From: Planctomycetota bacterium
GTDB lineage: Bacteria; Planctomycetota; Phycisphaerae; Phycisphaerales; UBA5793
Length of the DNA: 50,971 bases
NCBI GenBank assembly: GCA_963205185.1
Contig: CAUJHZ010000059.1
Coordinates: 1-50,971, forward strand
Reading direction: 5' to 3'
Positions 42,350 through 47,668 of the stretch are shown here, in pieces. How positions within the stretch are numbered: the stretch's first letter is position 1; every line of letters begins with the position of its first letter. The translations under genes and the position numbers were made by a program. The notes beneath the pieces were generated by a model. The model had not been told where the DNA came from, did not search any database, and saw only the letters and a program-made list of their open reading frames with translations.

Positions 42350-43270
42350 ATGATCTTTCATTCACCGAAGCATACCTGCCGCATCATTGGGCCGACGCTT
42401 GGCATCGCACTCCTCGCCGGCGCTGCCAGCGCACAGCAGACCGTCTATGACAACGAAGCTGAGTTCCTCGCCGAAATCGCCAGTGCCGGCTGGGAGACGT
42501 ACACGGAGGGCTTCGAAGGACCGGCGTGGGACGGCGTTCGCTCGCCCGATCCGTTCAACCACCACTCGGCAGTCTCGGTCACCAATCTCGGCGTCCGCTG
42601 GCACGCGCGACCGGGCAATCTCATCACAACCAATCACAACTGGGCCCGCGATCAACGTGGATGGGGCATTTTCGAGGATCAGATCCAGGGCTTCAGCGCC
42701 AGCGAGCTTTTCGGCGAGACTGATCGCACGATCTACGCGGTGAGCGGTTGGGTCAACACCAACCCCGATCAGTCCGACATCGCCATCGAGGTGAACGGTG
42801 AGTGGGTGGACTCGGTGCGCGTCGGCGCGGGCCACGCGTTCATCGGCGTGATCGACACGCGAGGCTTCACAGCGTTTCGCATCTTCGACCCGGACTTTGA
42901 ACATGTCTGGGGTGCGGACGACTTCACCTACGCAGCGCCGGACGCGCCACAGATCGAACTCGTTCTCGAGCCTGTCTGTCCGGATGGGGGCCTGTCGCGG
43001 CTCGCATGGAACCGGGCTTCGCCCGACGGACTGGTCGCCCTGCTCATGGCGCCTTCGGTCGGTCAGATCTCGATCCCGGGCAACCGGCCGTGCCCGGGCA
43101 CCGCGCTGGGGTTGAGTGGTCAGGGGCTGCGCATCGTGTACACGGGCCGCACGCCCAACAGCGGGCGGAAGGAAATGACTGTCAACGTTCCGCCGGCTGC
43201 GTGCGGTTCCTACTTGCAGATTATCGATCTCGCCACATGCGGCGTCAGCGCCGTCTGGCAGGTTCAGTAA
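42350..43270 (+). CDS. Secreted protein with the shared C-terminal domain (Cys-rich type)
   Basis: 306 residues from ATG 42350, with AAGGAGG ahead. The signal peptide is RIIGPTLGIALLAGAASAQ. The N-terminal part (YTEGFEGPAWDGVRSPDPFN ... DFTYAAPDAP) is jelly-roll-like, similar to choice-of-anchor proteins. The C-terminal module from about residue 195 reads LEPVCPDGGLSRLAW, VALLMAPSVGQISIPG, CPGTALGLSGQGLRIV, ACGSYLQIIDLATC and SAVWQVQ. A TTTATACT element at 42301 may be part of its promoter, but no matching -35 is seen. Confidence 0.75.
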   Translation: MIFHSPKHTCRIIGPTLGIALLAGAASAQQTVYDNEAEFLAEIASAGWETYTEGFEGPAWDGVRSPDPFNHHSAVSVTNLGVRWHARPGNLITTNHNWARDQRGWGIFEDQIQGFSASELFGETDRTIYAVSGWVNTNPDQSDIAIEVNGEWVDSVRVGAGHAFIGVIDTRGFTAFRIFDPDFEHVWGADDFTYAAPDAPQIELVLEPVCPDGGLSRLAWNRASPDGLVALLMAPSVGQISIPGNRPCPGTALGLSGQGLRIVYTGRTPNSGRKEMTVNVPPAACGSYLQIIDLATCGVSAVWQVQ

Positions 43271-43378
43271 GCGACGGGCGTCCGCGAACTCGTGCGTCGC
43301 GCGACGGCGGCTTGCGCACTTTCCTTCTGCCGCCTGGTCCGAGGACAAGGTCGCTGGCGCCTTGACATCGGGTCCGGG

Positions 43379-45184
43379 CTACTTCTTCTCCAGCATCTCC
43401 TTGGGCAGTTCGGCCGGGGGCAGGAGCTGCTCGGACAGGTTGATCGTCTGGCTGATCACGCCGCCCTTCTGGCTGTTGTAGACCAGTTCGATATCGCCTG
43501 AGCCTTCGACGATGAAGCGGAACAATTCGGTGGATTTGCCGCCGATGCCGCCATCAACCCACAGCCGCTGCGGCTCGTGCTCGACGGGACTGAACCGCGC
43601 ATCTTCGAGCAGCGAGTTCACGCTGCCGCCGGCGACGACGCGGGACTGGCCGTTGACCGCCGTGCACGTGAGGAAGTCGCGCTGGCCGATGCCCTTCTGG
43701 CGGGCCATGGCGGTGATGCTCGGGATGATCTTGTCGTTCTTGACCTCGACGCGAACGTCCCACAGGTTGCCGCCCATCGACTGCACCTGCTTGACGCCCC
43801 ACTCCACCTTGGGCATCTCGCGCGCGTGGAACATGGTGAAGGCGAAGTTGCGATGGCAGTCTTCTTCGCTCATCCACGGCGGCGGGACGCGGCTGGACCA
43901 CTTCTTGCTGCCTCCGATGAGCACCTCGCCCAGCGTCGGGTGGTTGTGCGGGCGATAGGGCACGAGCGGCTCGTCGAACTGCAGCAGTTCGGTGAAGCGC
44001 TTGTCGGCATCGGGGCCGGGGTTGTCAGTCTGGTTCGCCTTCCAGTCGCTCCAGAGTTCGTTGGTGAACGCGGTGATGCCAAGACCTTCGTAGGCCCAGT
44101 TCACCTCGCCGCCGTGCACGACATAGAGGTCTGACCAGAGGATCATCTTGCGATAGCCCGGCAGCATGAATCCACCGGCCTCCTGCAACTGGTCATAGAC
44201 GCGGATGTCCTGGAAGGGGTACTGGACGTAGTCGGCGCCGGGGCCGCGAAGAATCATGCCGCCGCTGTTGTGATAACTCTGGAACGCGGCGATGTTGGGA
44301 TGGCTCAGCATGAAGTCGCGAATGCAGCGCGTCTCGGGCAGGCTGAACGGATAATCGCGCGCGCCGCCCTGGATGTACTCGGGCTGCCAGTCGCTTGGCC
44401 AGTCGCGGTTGGGGTCGTAACTGCCCGGCCCGTCTTCGTTGATGTCGCCGTCGCCGTCGTTGTCGATGCCTTCGGAGCCGGCGCGGTTCCAGCCGCCCGG
44501 CTCTTCATCCTCTTCGACGCGGATCATGAAGCGCGGGTCTTTGGGGTCGGGCTTGTAGCGGCCGAGCGGATCGCGGCGGTACATCTGGGTGATGTGCCCG
44601 TCGCCGTCGAGGTCGTCGTAGGAATCTTCGTCGTAGAGGCCGTCGTTATCATCGTCGATGGGATCGATGCCCCCGCGCAGCCAGTGCGGCGTGGCGGCCT
44701 CGTGGAACCACGTGTCGCGGCCGTCGGGGTTTTCCATGGGCAGGAAGTAGAAGGCGCGTTCGTCCACGAGTTCGGTCAGCGCCTCGACGTGGCCGTAGCT
44801 CTTGGTGAGATACCAGATGGAATAGAGGATCGTCTCGGCGGCCTGGATTTCGTTGCCGTGAATGTTGCCGTCGATGAACATCGCGGCCTTGCTCGTGTCG
44901 GGCCCCGTCTTGGGGTTGTTGAGCGTGACGAGCCACATATCGCGCCCGCCGACGCTCTTGCCGATCGACTCCATCGTGAGCAGGTCGGGGTACGCCGCGA
45001 CGAGTTTGCGGAGCAGTTCGGTCATCTCCGCGTGGTCGTAGAAGCGGTTGAACTGGATATCGACCTTGCTGGGATACTGCCACTGGGCCAGCGCTACCTG
45101 CGGCGGCGCGCTGCAGAGCGCCGCAGCGCCGACGGCCACGCCCAAGAGACGAGTTGCAAACAAGGATCGGATCGAGTGCATCAT
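43379..45184 (-). CDS. Secreted M14-family zinc carboxypeptidase
   Basis: 601 residues with a signal peptide (RLLGVAVGAAALCSAPP ... ALAQ). The M14 core has the zinc motif HGNE (His 109, Glu 112) in FIDGNIHGNEIQAAE, the substrate-binding PMENPDGRDT, the third zinc His in AFQSYHNSGG, and the catalytic Glu in ITAFTNELW. Acidic DDDNDGLYDEDSYDDLDGDGH-type loops (DNDGDGDINEDG also) are inserted in the core and probably bind calcium. ATG 45184 or 45181 can start it. It lies 39 bp after a paralogue on the same strand and is likely cotranscribed with it. Confidence 0.9.
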   Translation of the reverse strand: MMHSIRSLFATRLLGVAVGAAALCSAPPQVALAQWQYPSKVDIQFNRFYDHAEMTELLRKLVAAYPDLLTMESIGKSVGGRDMWLVTLNNPKTGPDTSKAAMFIDGNIHGNEIQAAETILYSIWYLTKSYGHVEALTELVDERAFYFLPMENPDGRDTWFHEAATPHWLRGGIDPIDDDNDGLYDEDSYDDLDGDGHITQMYRRDPLGRYKPDPKDPRFMIRVEEDEEPGGWNRAGSEGIDNDGDGDINEDGPGSYDPNRDWPSDWQPEYIQGGARDYPFSLPETRCIRDFMLSHPNIAAFQSYHNSGGMILRGPGADYVQYPFQDIRVYDQLQEAGGFMLPGYRKMILWSDLYVVHGGEVNWAYEGLGITAFTNELWSDWKANQTDNPGPDADKRFTELLQFDEPLVPYRPHNHPTLGEVLIGGSKKWSSRVPPPWMSEEDCHRNFAFTMFHAREMPKVEWGVKQVQSMGGNLWDVRVEVKNDKIIPSITAMARQKGIGQRDFLTCTAVNGQSRVVAGGSVNSLLEDARFSPVEHEPQRLWVDGGIGGKSTELFRFIVEGSGDIELVYNSQKGGVISQTINLSEQLLPPAELPKEMLEKK

Positions 45185-45223
45185 CGAATGGCTCCCGTCA
45201 GCAGACGAGTGTGATGGTGAAAA

Positions 45224-47254
45224 TCAGTTGCTCGCGCCGGTGAGCGTGACGCTCGTTTCCGACGAGCCGTACTTGGCGCTGAAGAGCGTGATGGTGATCG
45301 TCGAATCATCTTCAGCGCGGATGAGCCAGCGGAAATCGTTGCGCCCGCCGCTACCCGCGACGGACCAGATCTTGGCGATGCGCTGACCCGAAACGACCTG
45401 CTCCTCGGGCAGGTCCACGCGCACCACAAACGGCAGGGCCCGGCGGTTGCGCACCGCCATGCGCGTCCCCGCCGGCAGGAAGCCGTCGTTGACGAGCGCG
45501 GCTTTCACTTCGTACAGGCCCGAGGCGAGTTTCGTCACCTCCGGCGTGGTCAGCGAGACCTCGGGCATCTTGCCCAGCAGATCGAGGATGAAGTCCGCCT
45601 GCTTGGCGGCGAGAGCGTCGAGTTCTTCAGCGGGCGGATCGACGCGGAAGTAGGGCACGAAGCCGCCGATCTGCACGCGCCCGAGTTGGGGATGCTCGAA
45701 GTCGGTCCATTCGACGAAGCCTTCGCCGTTGCGCTTGTCGGTGCTGTACTCGAGCCAGCCCTTGTCGCCTTCGGTGTTGCGGCCGCCGTTGCGCGGGCTG
45801 CGGTTGCCGCCGGCCGGCGGCGCCCCGCCTCCGGGCTGGAAGCCCCCGCCGCCGCGCCGGAACCCGCCGCGCCCGCCGCCGCCTCCCGGCGGAGGCTGCT
45901 GCGCGCCACCACCCGTGGGACGGGCGCTTCCGGTGGCGATCATCTGCCGGAAGAACGCGATTCGATCGGGCGGCATCTGCTGGAGCTGTTCGAGGGTGAC
46001 CTGCATGCCGCGCGCGTTGGCGGCTTCGAGGATGTCGCTGAAGTCGTCTTCCCCGGGCGCGGCGCCGCCGTTGCCGCCGCCGGCCTCGCCGCCTTCGGCC
46101 TTGTCTCCTTCGCCTTCGCCTTCCTTGGGCGCTTCGCTGGGCCGGCTCCACACCGGCGTGGCGAAGGATGGAATGCCGTACTGCGCATACGCCCACGCGT
46201 GGAAGGCGCCATCCACCGGCGGGCTGTTCACATTCTGCAGACCCGTGATCTTCTTGTACGACTCGCCGATGGCGCGGTAGACGGGCACATCGGCGCCGTC
46301 GATGTTGATCGGTGCGCCGCCGTTGATCGACCCCTGCCCGTTGGGCGTGTTGTTCAGGTTGTCGTGCCGGCCGTAGGTCAGGGCGATGGCGATGTTCTGG
46401 TGCGACAGCGCGTAGCGCAGCAGCGAAAGCGATTCAGGCTCGGACACGGGATGGCGACCCACGCCGTCGTCGTGCTCGCGCCAGTCGTGCATGAAGTTGC
46501 GATTCAGATCCACGCCACCGGCGGCGTCTTCGTTGTAGTTGCCGTCGCCGTCGTCATCGGACCCCTCGATCATCAGGAAGAACTCGGCCCGCTGGCCCTT
46601 TTCGGCGTCGGGCGCGATGTCGAGGCGCGGCTCGTCGGGATCGGCGGTGCGATTCGCCTTCTCCGGGTCGTAGACGCGCATCATCGTGATGAGCCCGTCG
46701 CCGTTGAGATCATTCGGCCCGTCTTCGTCCTCCTGCATGTCGCGGTCGGCATCGTCGGGCCGGCGGTTGCGGTTAATCTCCTGCTTCACCTGGGCGAAGT
46801 AGAGCTCGGCGGCGTCGGGATTGACGCGCGGCACGACGTAGAGTGTGTAGCGGCCGAGCAATTCGGCTGCGGGAGATGCGCCGTCTTCCCCGGCCCGGCG
46901 CAGCAGTTCGCGCACGGCACGCAGCGCGACTTCGCTGCCTGCAAGGTGATCCCCGTCGATGTTGGCGGCCAGAAGCAGCGCCGGCCGCTTGTCGGCGTCA
47001 ACGCTGCCGGGCAGCGCGACGCGCAGGGCCCAGAGGTGACGCATCTCAAGACTCTCGCCAATCGAGGTGAGTTGCAGCGCCTGCGGGTGCTCGGCCGCGA
47101 GGGCCTTGAGCGCGGCGGTGAACTCGTCATAGGTGCGGTACGACGCATCGGGCGCGGCGTCCTGGGCCAGCGCGACGCGGCAGGTGCACACGCCGGGTGT
47201 CAGAAGCGCCAGGCCGGCGCACAATGCAGCAGCGAGCGGAAAGCGATGAACCAC
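45224..47254 (-). CDS. Secreted M14-like protein with degenerate active site (probable pseudoenzyme)
   Basis: 676 residues from GTG 47254, with AGGAGG six bases ahead. The signal peptide (RFPLAAALCAGLALLTPGVC) is followed by a domain that tracks the M14 neighbour. But the zinc motif NIHGNE is NIDGDH here (residues 98-103), SYHNSGG is TYGRHDNLNN, and the catalytic FTNELW is FATPVW. DRDMQEDEDGPNDLNGDG-type acidic loops are kept. A C-terminal third of about 250 residues is Gly/Arg/Pro-rich (GGGRGGFRRGGGGFQPGGG) and then beta-like. It may regulate, bind substrate for, or partner the active enzyme; it is unlikely to be a classical carboxypeptidase. Confidence 0.75.
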   Translation of the reverse strand: MVHRFPLAAALCAGLALLTPGVCTCRVALAQDAAPDASYRTYDEFTAALKALAAEHPQALQLTSIGESLEMRHLWALRVALPGSVDADKRPALLLAANIDGDHLAGSEVALRAVRELLRRAGEDGASPAAELLGRYTLYVVPRVNPDAAELYFAQVKQEINRNRRPDDADRDMQEDEDGPNDLNGDGLITMMRVYDPEKANRTADPDEPRLDIAPDAEKGQRAEFFLMIEGSDDDGDGNYNEDAAGGVDLNRNFMHDWREHDDGVGRHPVSEPESLSLLRYALSHQNIAIALTYGRHDNLNNTPNGQGSINGGAPINIDGADVPVYRAIGESYKKITGLQNVNSPPVDGAFHAWAYAQYGIPSFATPVWSRPSEAPKEGEGEGDKAEGGEAGGGNGGAAPGEDDFSDILEAANARGMQVTLEQLQQMPPDRIAFFRQMIATGSARPTGGGAQQPPPGGGGGRGGFRRGGGGFQPGGGAPPAGGNRSPRNGGRNTEGDKGWLEYSTDKRNGEGFVEWTDFEHPQLGRVQIGGFVPYFRVDPPAEELDALAAKQADFILDLLGKMPEVSLTTPEVTKLASGLYEVKAALVNDGFLPAGTRMAVRNRRALPFVVRVDLPEEQVVSGQRIAKIWSVAGSGGRNDFRWLIRAEDDSTITITLFSAKYGSSETSVTLTGASN

Positions 47255-47432
47255 TCCGGACCTCCTCGCCAGGCGCCGCCGGGGTGCGCAGCGCGTGCGA
47301 ACGGGAAAATGATGAACCCAACCAACCAGGCAGCCAACGGCGACACTACCGCCCCCGCCGGCCGAAGTTGCAGCGTAGCGGGACGCGCGGCAGGCGTCAA
47401 AGCGGCGCTCAAAGAGCGGGGAGCGAAGCCAA

Positions 47433-47514
47433 TGCGGGCGAGAGGACTCGAACCTCCACGTCTTGCGACACCAGAACCTAAATCTGGCGCGTCTGCCAAT
47501 TTCGCCACGCCCGC
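47433..47514 (-). tRNA. tRNA-Leu (anticodon UAG)
   Basis: Read on the minus strand: acceptor stem GCGGGCG / CGCCCGC with discriminator A, the D-arm GCGAAATTGGCAGACGCGC, and anticodon stem CCAGA / TCTGG. The 7-nt loop TTTAGGT places UAG at the anticodon (plus-strand 47478-47480). A leucine-type extra arm follows (GTCGCAAGACG), and then the T-arm GGTTCGAGTCC. It reads CUA and related Leu codons. CCA is not encoded. It is 82 nt long. Confidence 0.95.
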
Positions 47515-47668
47515 ACGAGGCCGGCTGCAAGGCCCAACAAGTGTACCCGGAGCGGCTGCGGCGGGTGCCCATGCTGCCCGGCGCGCGGGGCCGTATCATT
47601 GCTTTCCGCCCCTGATCGGCATCGCGGCAACTCGGTTGCACGCGAAGATTTGCGAGGAGTTCACCACC

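Follow-up and report, generated by a model that had tools for sequence, protein, structure and literature searches.

A co-inherited tandem of an M14 carboxypeptidase and a paralog lacking the active site in Planctomycetota

The window analyzed here is a stretch of 50,971 nucleotides from a Planctomycetota bacterium (assembly GCA_963205185.1, contig CAUJHZ010000059.1). It carries two M14 genes on the minus strand, separated by 39 bases, which we call PSE (upstream) and ACT (downstream) (Table 1). The initial annotation placed a tandem here, with the altered member upstream and a signal peptide kept in both proteins, and the gene coordinates, the strand and the predicted signal peptides bore this out. 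The GTG start of PSE is preceded by the Shine-Dalgarno sequence GAGGAGG, and a tRNA-Leu gene (47432-47515) marks the upstream boundary of the pair. Both proteins match Pfam Peptidase_M14, ACT with an E value of 8e-38 and PSE with 2.6e-23 (83.5 bits, for a cut-off of 21.6), and they share 32% identity over the catalytic part. Close relatives of PSE reach 69-70% identity in the best segment. The same genome carries a further tandem of two M14 genes (contig C73:40872-41702 and 42660-43496; L006 and L004), both with HARE and DLNRN motifs and so apparently canonical at those places.

Table 1. Features of the PSE-ACT locus, in window coordinates
Feature	Residues	Position	Strand	Evidence or detail
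PSE, upstream gene, M14-fold pseudoenzyme		45224..47254	minus	676 aa, GTG start, predicted signal peptide
PSE DGDH, at the place of the HxxE zinc motif	100-103	46946..46957	minus	alignment to ACT HGNE
PSE acidic loop 1, DxDxDG-like	161-190	46685..46774	minus	D170, D172, E177, D182 invariant
PSE acidic loop 2, DxDGDG-like	230-243	46526..46567	minus	E230, D233, D235, D237, E242, D243 invariant
PSE YGRHDN, at the place of third zinc ligand His196	294-299	46358..46375	minus	Gly in 91/113 orthologs
PSE TPVW, at the place of catalytic Glu270	366-369	46148..46159	minus	Glu in 0/113 orthologs
PSE Gly/Arg-rich internal linker	~370-495	45770..46147	minus	pLDDT and ortholog comparison
ACT, downstream gene, canonical M14 carboxypeptidase		43379..45184	minus	601 aa, predicted signal peptide
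ACT HGNE zinc motif	109-112	44849..44860	minus	H and E in 115/115
ACT acidic loop 1	177-199	44588..44656	minus	D177, D179, D181, E186, D187, D191 invariant
ACT acidic loop 2	238-251	44432..44473	minus	E238, D241, D243, D245, E250, D251 invariant
ACT YHNSGG, third zinc ligand His305	304-309	44258..44275	minus	115/115
ACT NELW, catalytic Glu376	375-378	44051..44062	minus	115/115

The window ACT has HGNE, YHNSGG and NELW together with the equivalents of Arg127, Asn144, Arg145 and Tyr248 (positions 69, 72, 127, 144, 145, 196, 248 and 270 are given in bovine CPA numbering). At the places of the three motifs PSE reads DGDH, YGRHDN and TPVW; none of the three zinc ligands is left, nor is the catalytic Glu, the general base. 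The contrast of HGNE and NELW with DGDH and TPVW had been pointed out at the outset, and the changes to the HxxE motif and to the Glu hold at those residues; the loss of the third ligand (YHNSGG versus YGRHDN) had been omitted.

The searches covered 298 genomes at the level of the class and 392 at that of the phylum; about 120 loci were then read. The zinc ligands and Glu270 were intact in 115/115 ACT orthologs, as was each of the Arg127, Asn144, Arg145 and Tyr248 equivalents, and all 14 related unpaired M14 proteins were canonical. The canonical set was absent from every one of 113 PSE orthologs, none of which retained more than two of the four zinc and catalytic residues. Position 69 was D, E, H, N, A or another residue, position 72 mostly H or R, and position 196 Gly in most orthologs; position 270 was mostly R, P, N, S, T or A. 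The substrate-binding residues had also become scarce, R127 being present in 35 of the 113 orthologs and N144 in 43. The recurrence of the same loss throughout PSE, while ACT and the unpaired relatives are canonical, excludes chance and makes the loss old and stable. PSE is accordingly a protein that we predict to be incapable of exopeptidase activity. In two deep-branching PSE the zinc motif survives in part (HGDE in L178; GDE and a His in L181), perhaps as a relic of the ancestral site. As for ACT, position 255 is Val in 89/115 orthologs; in CPA-type M14 enzymes Val at this position goes with hydrophobic C-terminal residues, and ACT is therefore expected to be a CPA-like exopeptidase.

PSE could still be an enzyme if other residues had taken over metal binding (in the window protein, D100, H103 and H297 would be candidates); the initial annotation had named an intact alternative site as one of two findings that would overturn its reading, the other being canonical residues in orthologs. 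We found no conserved substitute zinc site among the PSE orthologs: a D/E/H + H + H combination is available in 22/113, the window PSE included, and missing in the other 91. His72 and His198 do co-occur above expectation (25/43 versus 20/70; Fisher p 0.003, a value that ignores relatedness), but the candidate site belongs to variable parts of the protein and no ortholog has the catalytic Glu, so that we consider an enzyme of this kind improbable.

AlphaFold2 models built on family alignments indicate that the architecture outlived the active site. The PSE model (pLDDT 86.3, pTM 0.83) found its best solved match in human CPB (1zli; Z 31.2, rmsd 2.5 over 274 residues), with Z about 31 against CPB and CPT, and the ACT model (pLDDT 92.9, pTM 0.90) matched bovine CPA (2abz; Z 38.2, rmsd 1.9 over 287 residues). 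PSE is thus predicted with high confidence to retain the M14 fold. The Gly/Arg-rich stretch, first described as a tail of PSE, turned out to be an internal linker. It takes up about 125 residues, from where the catalytic-site region ends to a shared HPxLG motif, is largely disordered (pLDDT <50 at 387-401 and 444-488, a short helical segment lying at 405-442), and is followed by a C-terminal beta domain common to both proteins. Across PSE orthologs its length between landmarks ranges from 0 to 203 residues and the composition varies; we rejected the stretch as a functional part, and as a lineage-specific linker it cannot serve as an argument about function. At the same place, two PSE (L045 and L052) have an EF-hand-like motif (DTNGDGELDEDE / DTDGDGELSGDE) and two others (L060 and L066) a different, beta-looking insert (GSWSGEIALPMMEGM...).

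Both proteins also carry two acidic loops, situated between the Arg127 and Asn144 positions. The DxDGDG/DxNGDG pattern is present in 115/115 ACT and 101/113 PSE, and the loop Asp and Glu residues listed in Table 1 are invariant in both alignments (99 aligned PSE were scored), which upholds the early observation that the loops are kept. Outside them, the invariant residues of PSE are G266, D322, G349, G530 and G531. By their likeness to DxDxDG calcium loops, the acidic loops may bind calcium.

Comparison of the window genes with their counterparts in three close relatives showed purifying selection on PSE, at a dN/dS of 0.13-0.30, much like that of ACT (0.13-0.29). This rules out a pseudogene. 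In favor of a decaying gene hitch-hiking with ACT, PSE does evolve faster (mean distance 1.12 versus 0.77), but such decay has next to no credibility given these ratios, the invariant loops, the strict retention of the gene, and open frames with predicted signal peptides across the phylum. With a homologous fold, a conserved loss of catalytic residues and selection acting on it, PSE is an M14 pseudopeptidase. The fold and the acidic loops appear to be what selection retains in it. A tree built from 89 proteins separated PSE from ACT by a branch (99 and 100% SH-aLRT); the canonical unpaired proteins fell nearer ACT, and many PSE and ACT subclades matched. This tree makes it likely that PSE arose once (99%), but the deepest PSE branches were without firm grouping in a second tree to which further paralogs from family f56 (see below) had been added. 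Pairwise distances of PSE and ACT were correlated (r = 0.78), which partly reflects shared species history.

The two genes are also inherited together. The initial annotation had proposed to look at the co-occurrence of the pair, and in the 298 genomes of the class it is exact: the same 50 carry PSE and ACT. Assuming independence, the probability of this is ∼1e-57, or 1e-39 when counted by genus. Families f2, f3 and f5 each include genomes with both genes and genomes with neither, so the pair seems to have been jointly gained or lost more than once. Across the phylum we found 116 linked pairs, in all of which PSE lies directly upstream of ACT on the same strand; the proposed enzyme/pseudoenzyme pair is real and extends well beyond the window. 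With gene starts picked by a signal-peptide heuristic, about 84 pairs overlap by 1-7 bases, 63 of them by exactly 4. Loci that seemed to hold ACT only (L170 and similar) sit at contig ends. ACT thus has a dedicated, co-inherited partner gene, as heteromeric enzyme/pseudoenzyme pairs do. No third gene was common to the linked neighborhoods beyond close relatives, and an extended operon was rejected, its neighbors being conserved solely among close relatives. A scan of genome contigs returned two relatives, and a plasmid search gave a single, weak M14 match. One locus (L042), in a record labeled Vicinamibacteraceae (Acidobacteriota), holds a pair 74-82% identical to that of the window; the record may be a misclassified planctomycete genome.

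Considering that the fold, the export signal, the loops, the overlapping gene arrangement and strict co-inheritance have all been retained, we favor PSE as the dedicated non-catalytic partner of ACT in one secreted two-protein system, and hold this to be probable, with appreciable room for doubt. A protein-binding role fits PSE, whose fold is preserved while its active site is not, and the same-strand linkage, purifying selection, matching subclades and correlated distances also back a dedicated partner. According to this model, PSE and ACT would be co-produced by translational coupling, exported, as their predicted signal peptides suggest, and assembled into a heteromer through physical association. 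ACT would act as a zinc carboxypeptidase that trims C-terminal residues, probably hydrophobic ones, and PSE, an ancient dead M14 homolog, would be the folded scaffold. Equipped with two acidic loops of a metal-binding type, PSE would stabilize its partner, activate it or present substrate to it. The suggestion made initially, that the pair serves regulation or substrate capture, is plausible. As to the kind of help that PSE would give, activation or stabilization is our first choice, substrate presentation the second and inhibition the third.

Inhibition would mean that PSE acts on ACT in trans, as the prodomain does in pancreatic procarboxypeptidases. ACT lacks a prodomain of its own, its catalytic domain beginning around residue 40-48, a short way past the signal peptide, and PSE is made first. 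PSE nevertheless consists of a full M14 domain and a beta domain, unlike any prodomain, and the sequences give no pointer to inhibition over activation; we regard this as rather unlikely.

Two observations count against a dedicated partner of ACT. One genome (G248) is the sole case in which both genes are present but unlinked, on different contigs and far from contig ends (L058, L093). The other comes from family f56, where L204, L206, L207, L208, L209, L210 and L211 show a second, unlinked M14 tandem with neither zinc nor catalytic residues in either member; its upstream member, with the acidic loops, clusters with PSE, and its downstream member is without them. At L205 the upstream member alone was seen. 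A fold pair of the PSE/ACT type can therefore apparently serve without catalysis.

This dead-dead tandem, which has no enzyme adjoining, also speaks for another reading, that PSE is exported to bind a peptide, a surface polymer or a fragment of the wall and shares a pathway with ACT without touching it. Such a binder would account for the operon and the co-inheritance with no need for a complex, and collagen binding is known for eukaryotic M14 pseudopeptidases (PMC11266112). The low frequencies of R127 and N144 in PSE, however, leave no conserved peptide-binding groove evident, and gene overlap in most pairs favors stoichiometric assembly. We judge a binder without contact unlikely, though less so than inhibition in trans.

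If PSE is the dedicated partner of ACT, the plain annotation "zinc carboxypeptidase" is wrong for half of the PSE and ACT proteins, and ACT expressed alone could seem inactive or unstable. More speculatively, and with less than even confidence, the pairs could represent a phylum-wide bacterial family of heteromeric metallocarboxypeptidases that cannot do without their dead M14 subunit, the lone-looking enzyme being half of a complex, and one family would have moved on to a dead-dead tandem with a purely structural or binding role. The more than 100 natural PSE-ACT pairs in the phylum form a set for asking what selection keeps once catalysis is gone.

M14 pseudopeptidases are already known, as are bacterial enzyme/pseudoenzyme pairs in other families. 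What appears to be new is their combination in a two-gene M14 pair that is inherited together across a phylum of bacteria; we found no description of a bacterial M14 enzyme/pseudoenzyme pair in the open-licence literature. The M14 pseudopeptidases covered by a 2024 review, vertebrate CPD, AEBP1, CPXM1 and CPXM2 and yeast Ecm14, are all eukaryotic (PMC11266112). Domain III of animal carboxypeptidase D, in which nearly all active-site residues are substituted and for which substrate presentation has been suggested (PMC11266112), resembles PSE in being a dead M14 domain tied to active ones, but CPD is one polypeptide, whereas PSE and ACT are two separate bacterial genes whose products have two extra acidic loops. 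AEBP1/ACLP, CPXM1, CPXM2 and Ecm14 are like PSE in combining the M14 fold with substitutions of zinc or catalytic residues (PMC11266112), but have no dedicated active partner encoded alongside, and ACLP and the CPXM proteins contain discoidin domains that PSE does not. The closest solved sequences and folds for both PSE and ACT, carboxypeptidase T of Thermoactinomyces and pancreatic CPA/CPB, are single enzymes without a paired pseudoenzyme, an acidic double loop or a C-terminal beta domain of the PSE/ACT kind.

Outside M14, paired active and inactive paralogous metallopeptidases are found in family M16, in MPP alpha/beta and in the prokaryotic M16B two-gene operons (PMC11266112). The bacterial ones share the two-gene arrangement of PSE-ACT; their fold is unrelated and they form a clamshell chamber, and the association demonstrated for M16 is one that we infer for PSE and ACT. 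Helicobacter Csd1-Csd2 (M23B) is a heterodimer of a metallopeptidase and a metal-free paralog (PMC5053510), from an unrelated family and dimerizing via helical domains that PSE and ACT lack. In metformin hydrolase MetCa-MetCb (PMC11271267) and the trypanosomatid AdoMetDC prozyme (PMC5201418), both from unrelated enzyme families, a dead paralog is needed to activate its live partner. Altogether, M16, CPD domain III, Csd1-Csd2, MetCaCb and the prozyme are precedents for a dead paralog that helps a live partner.
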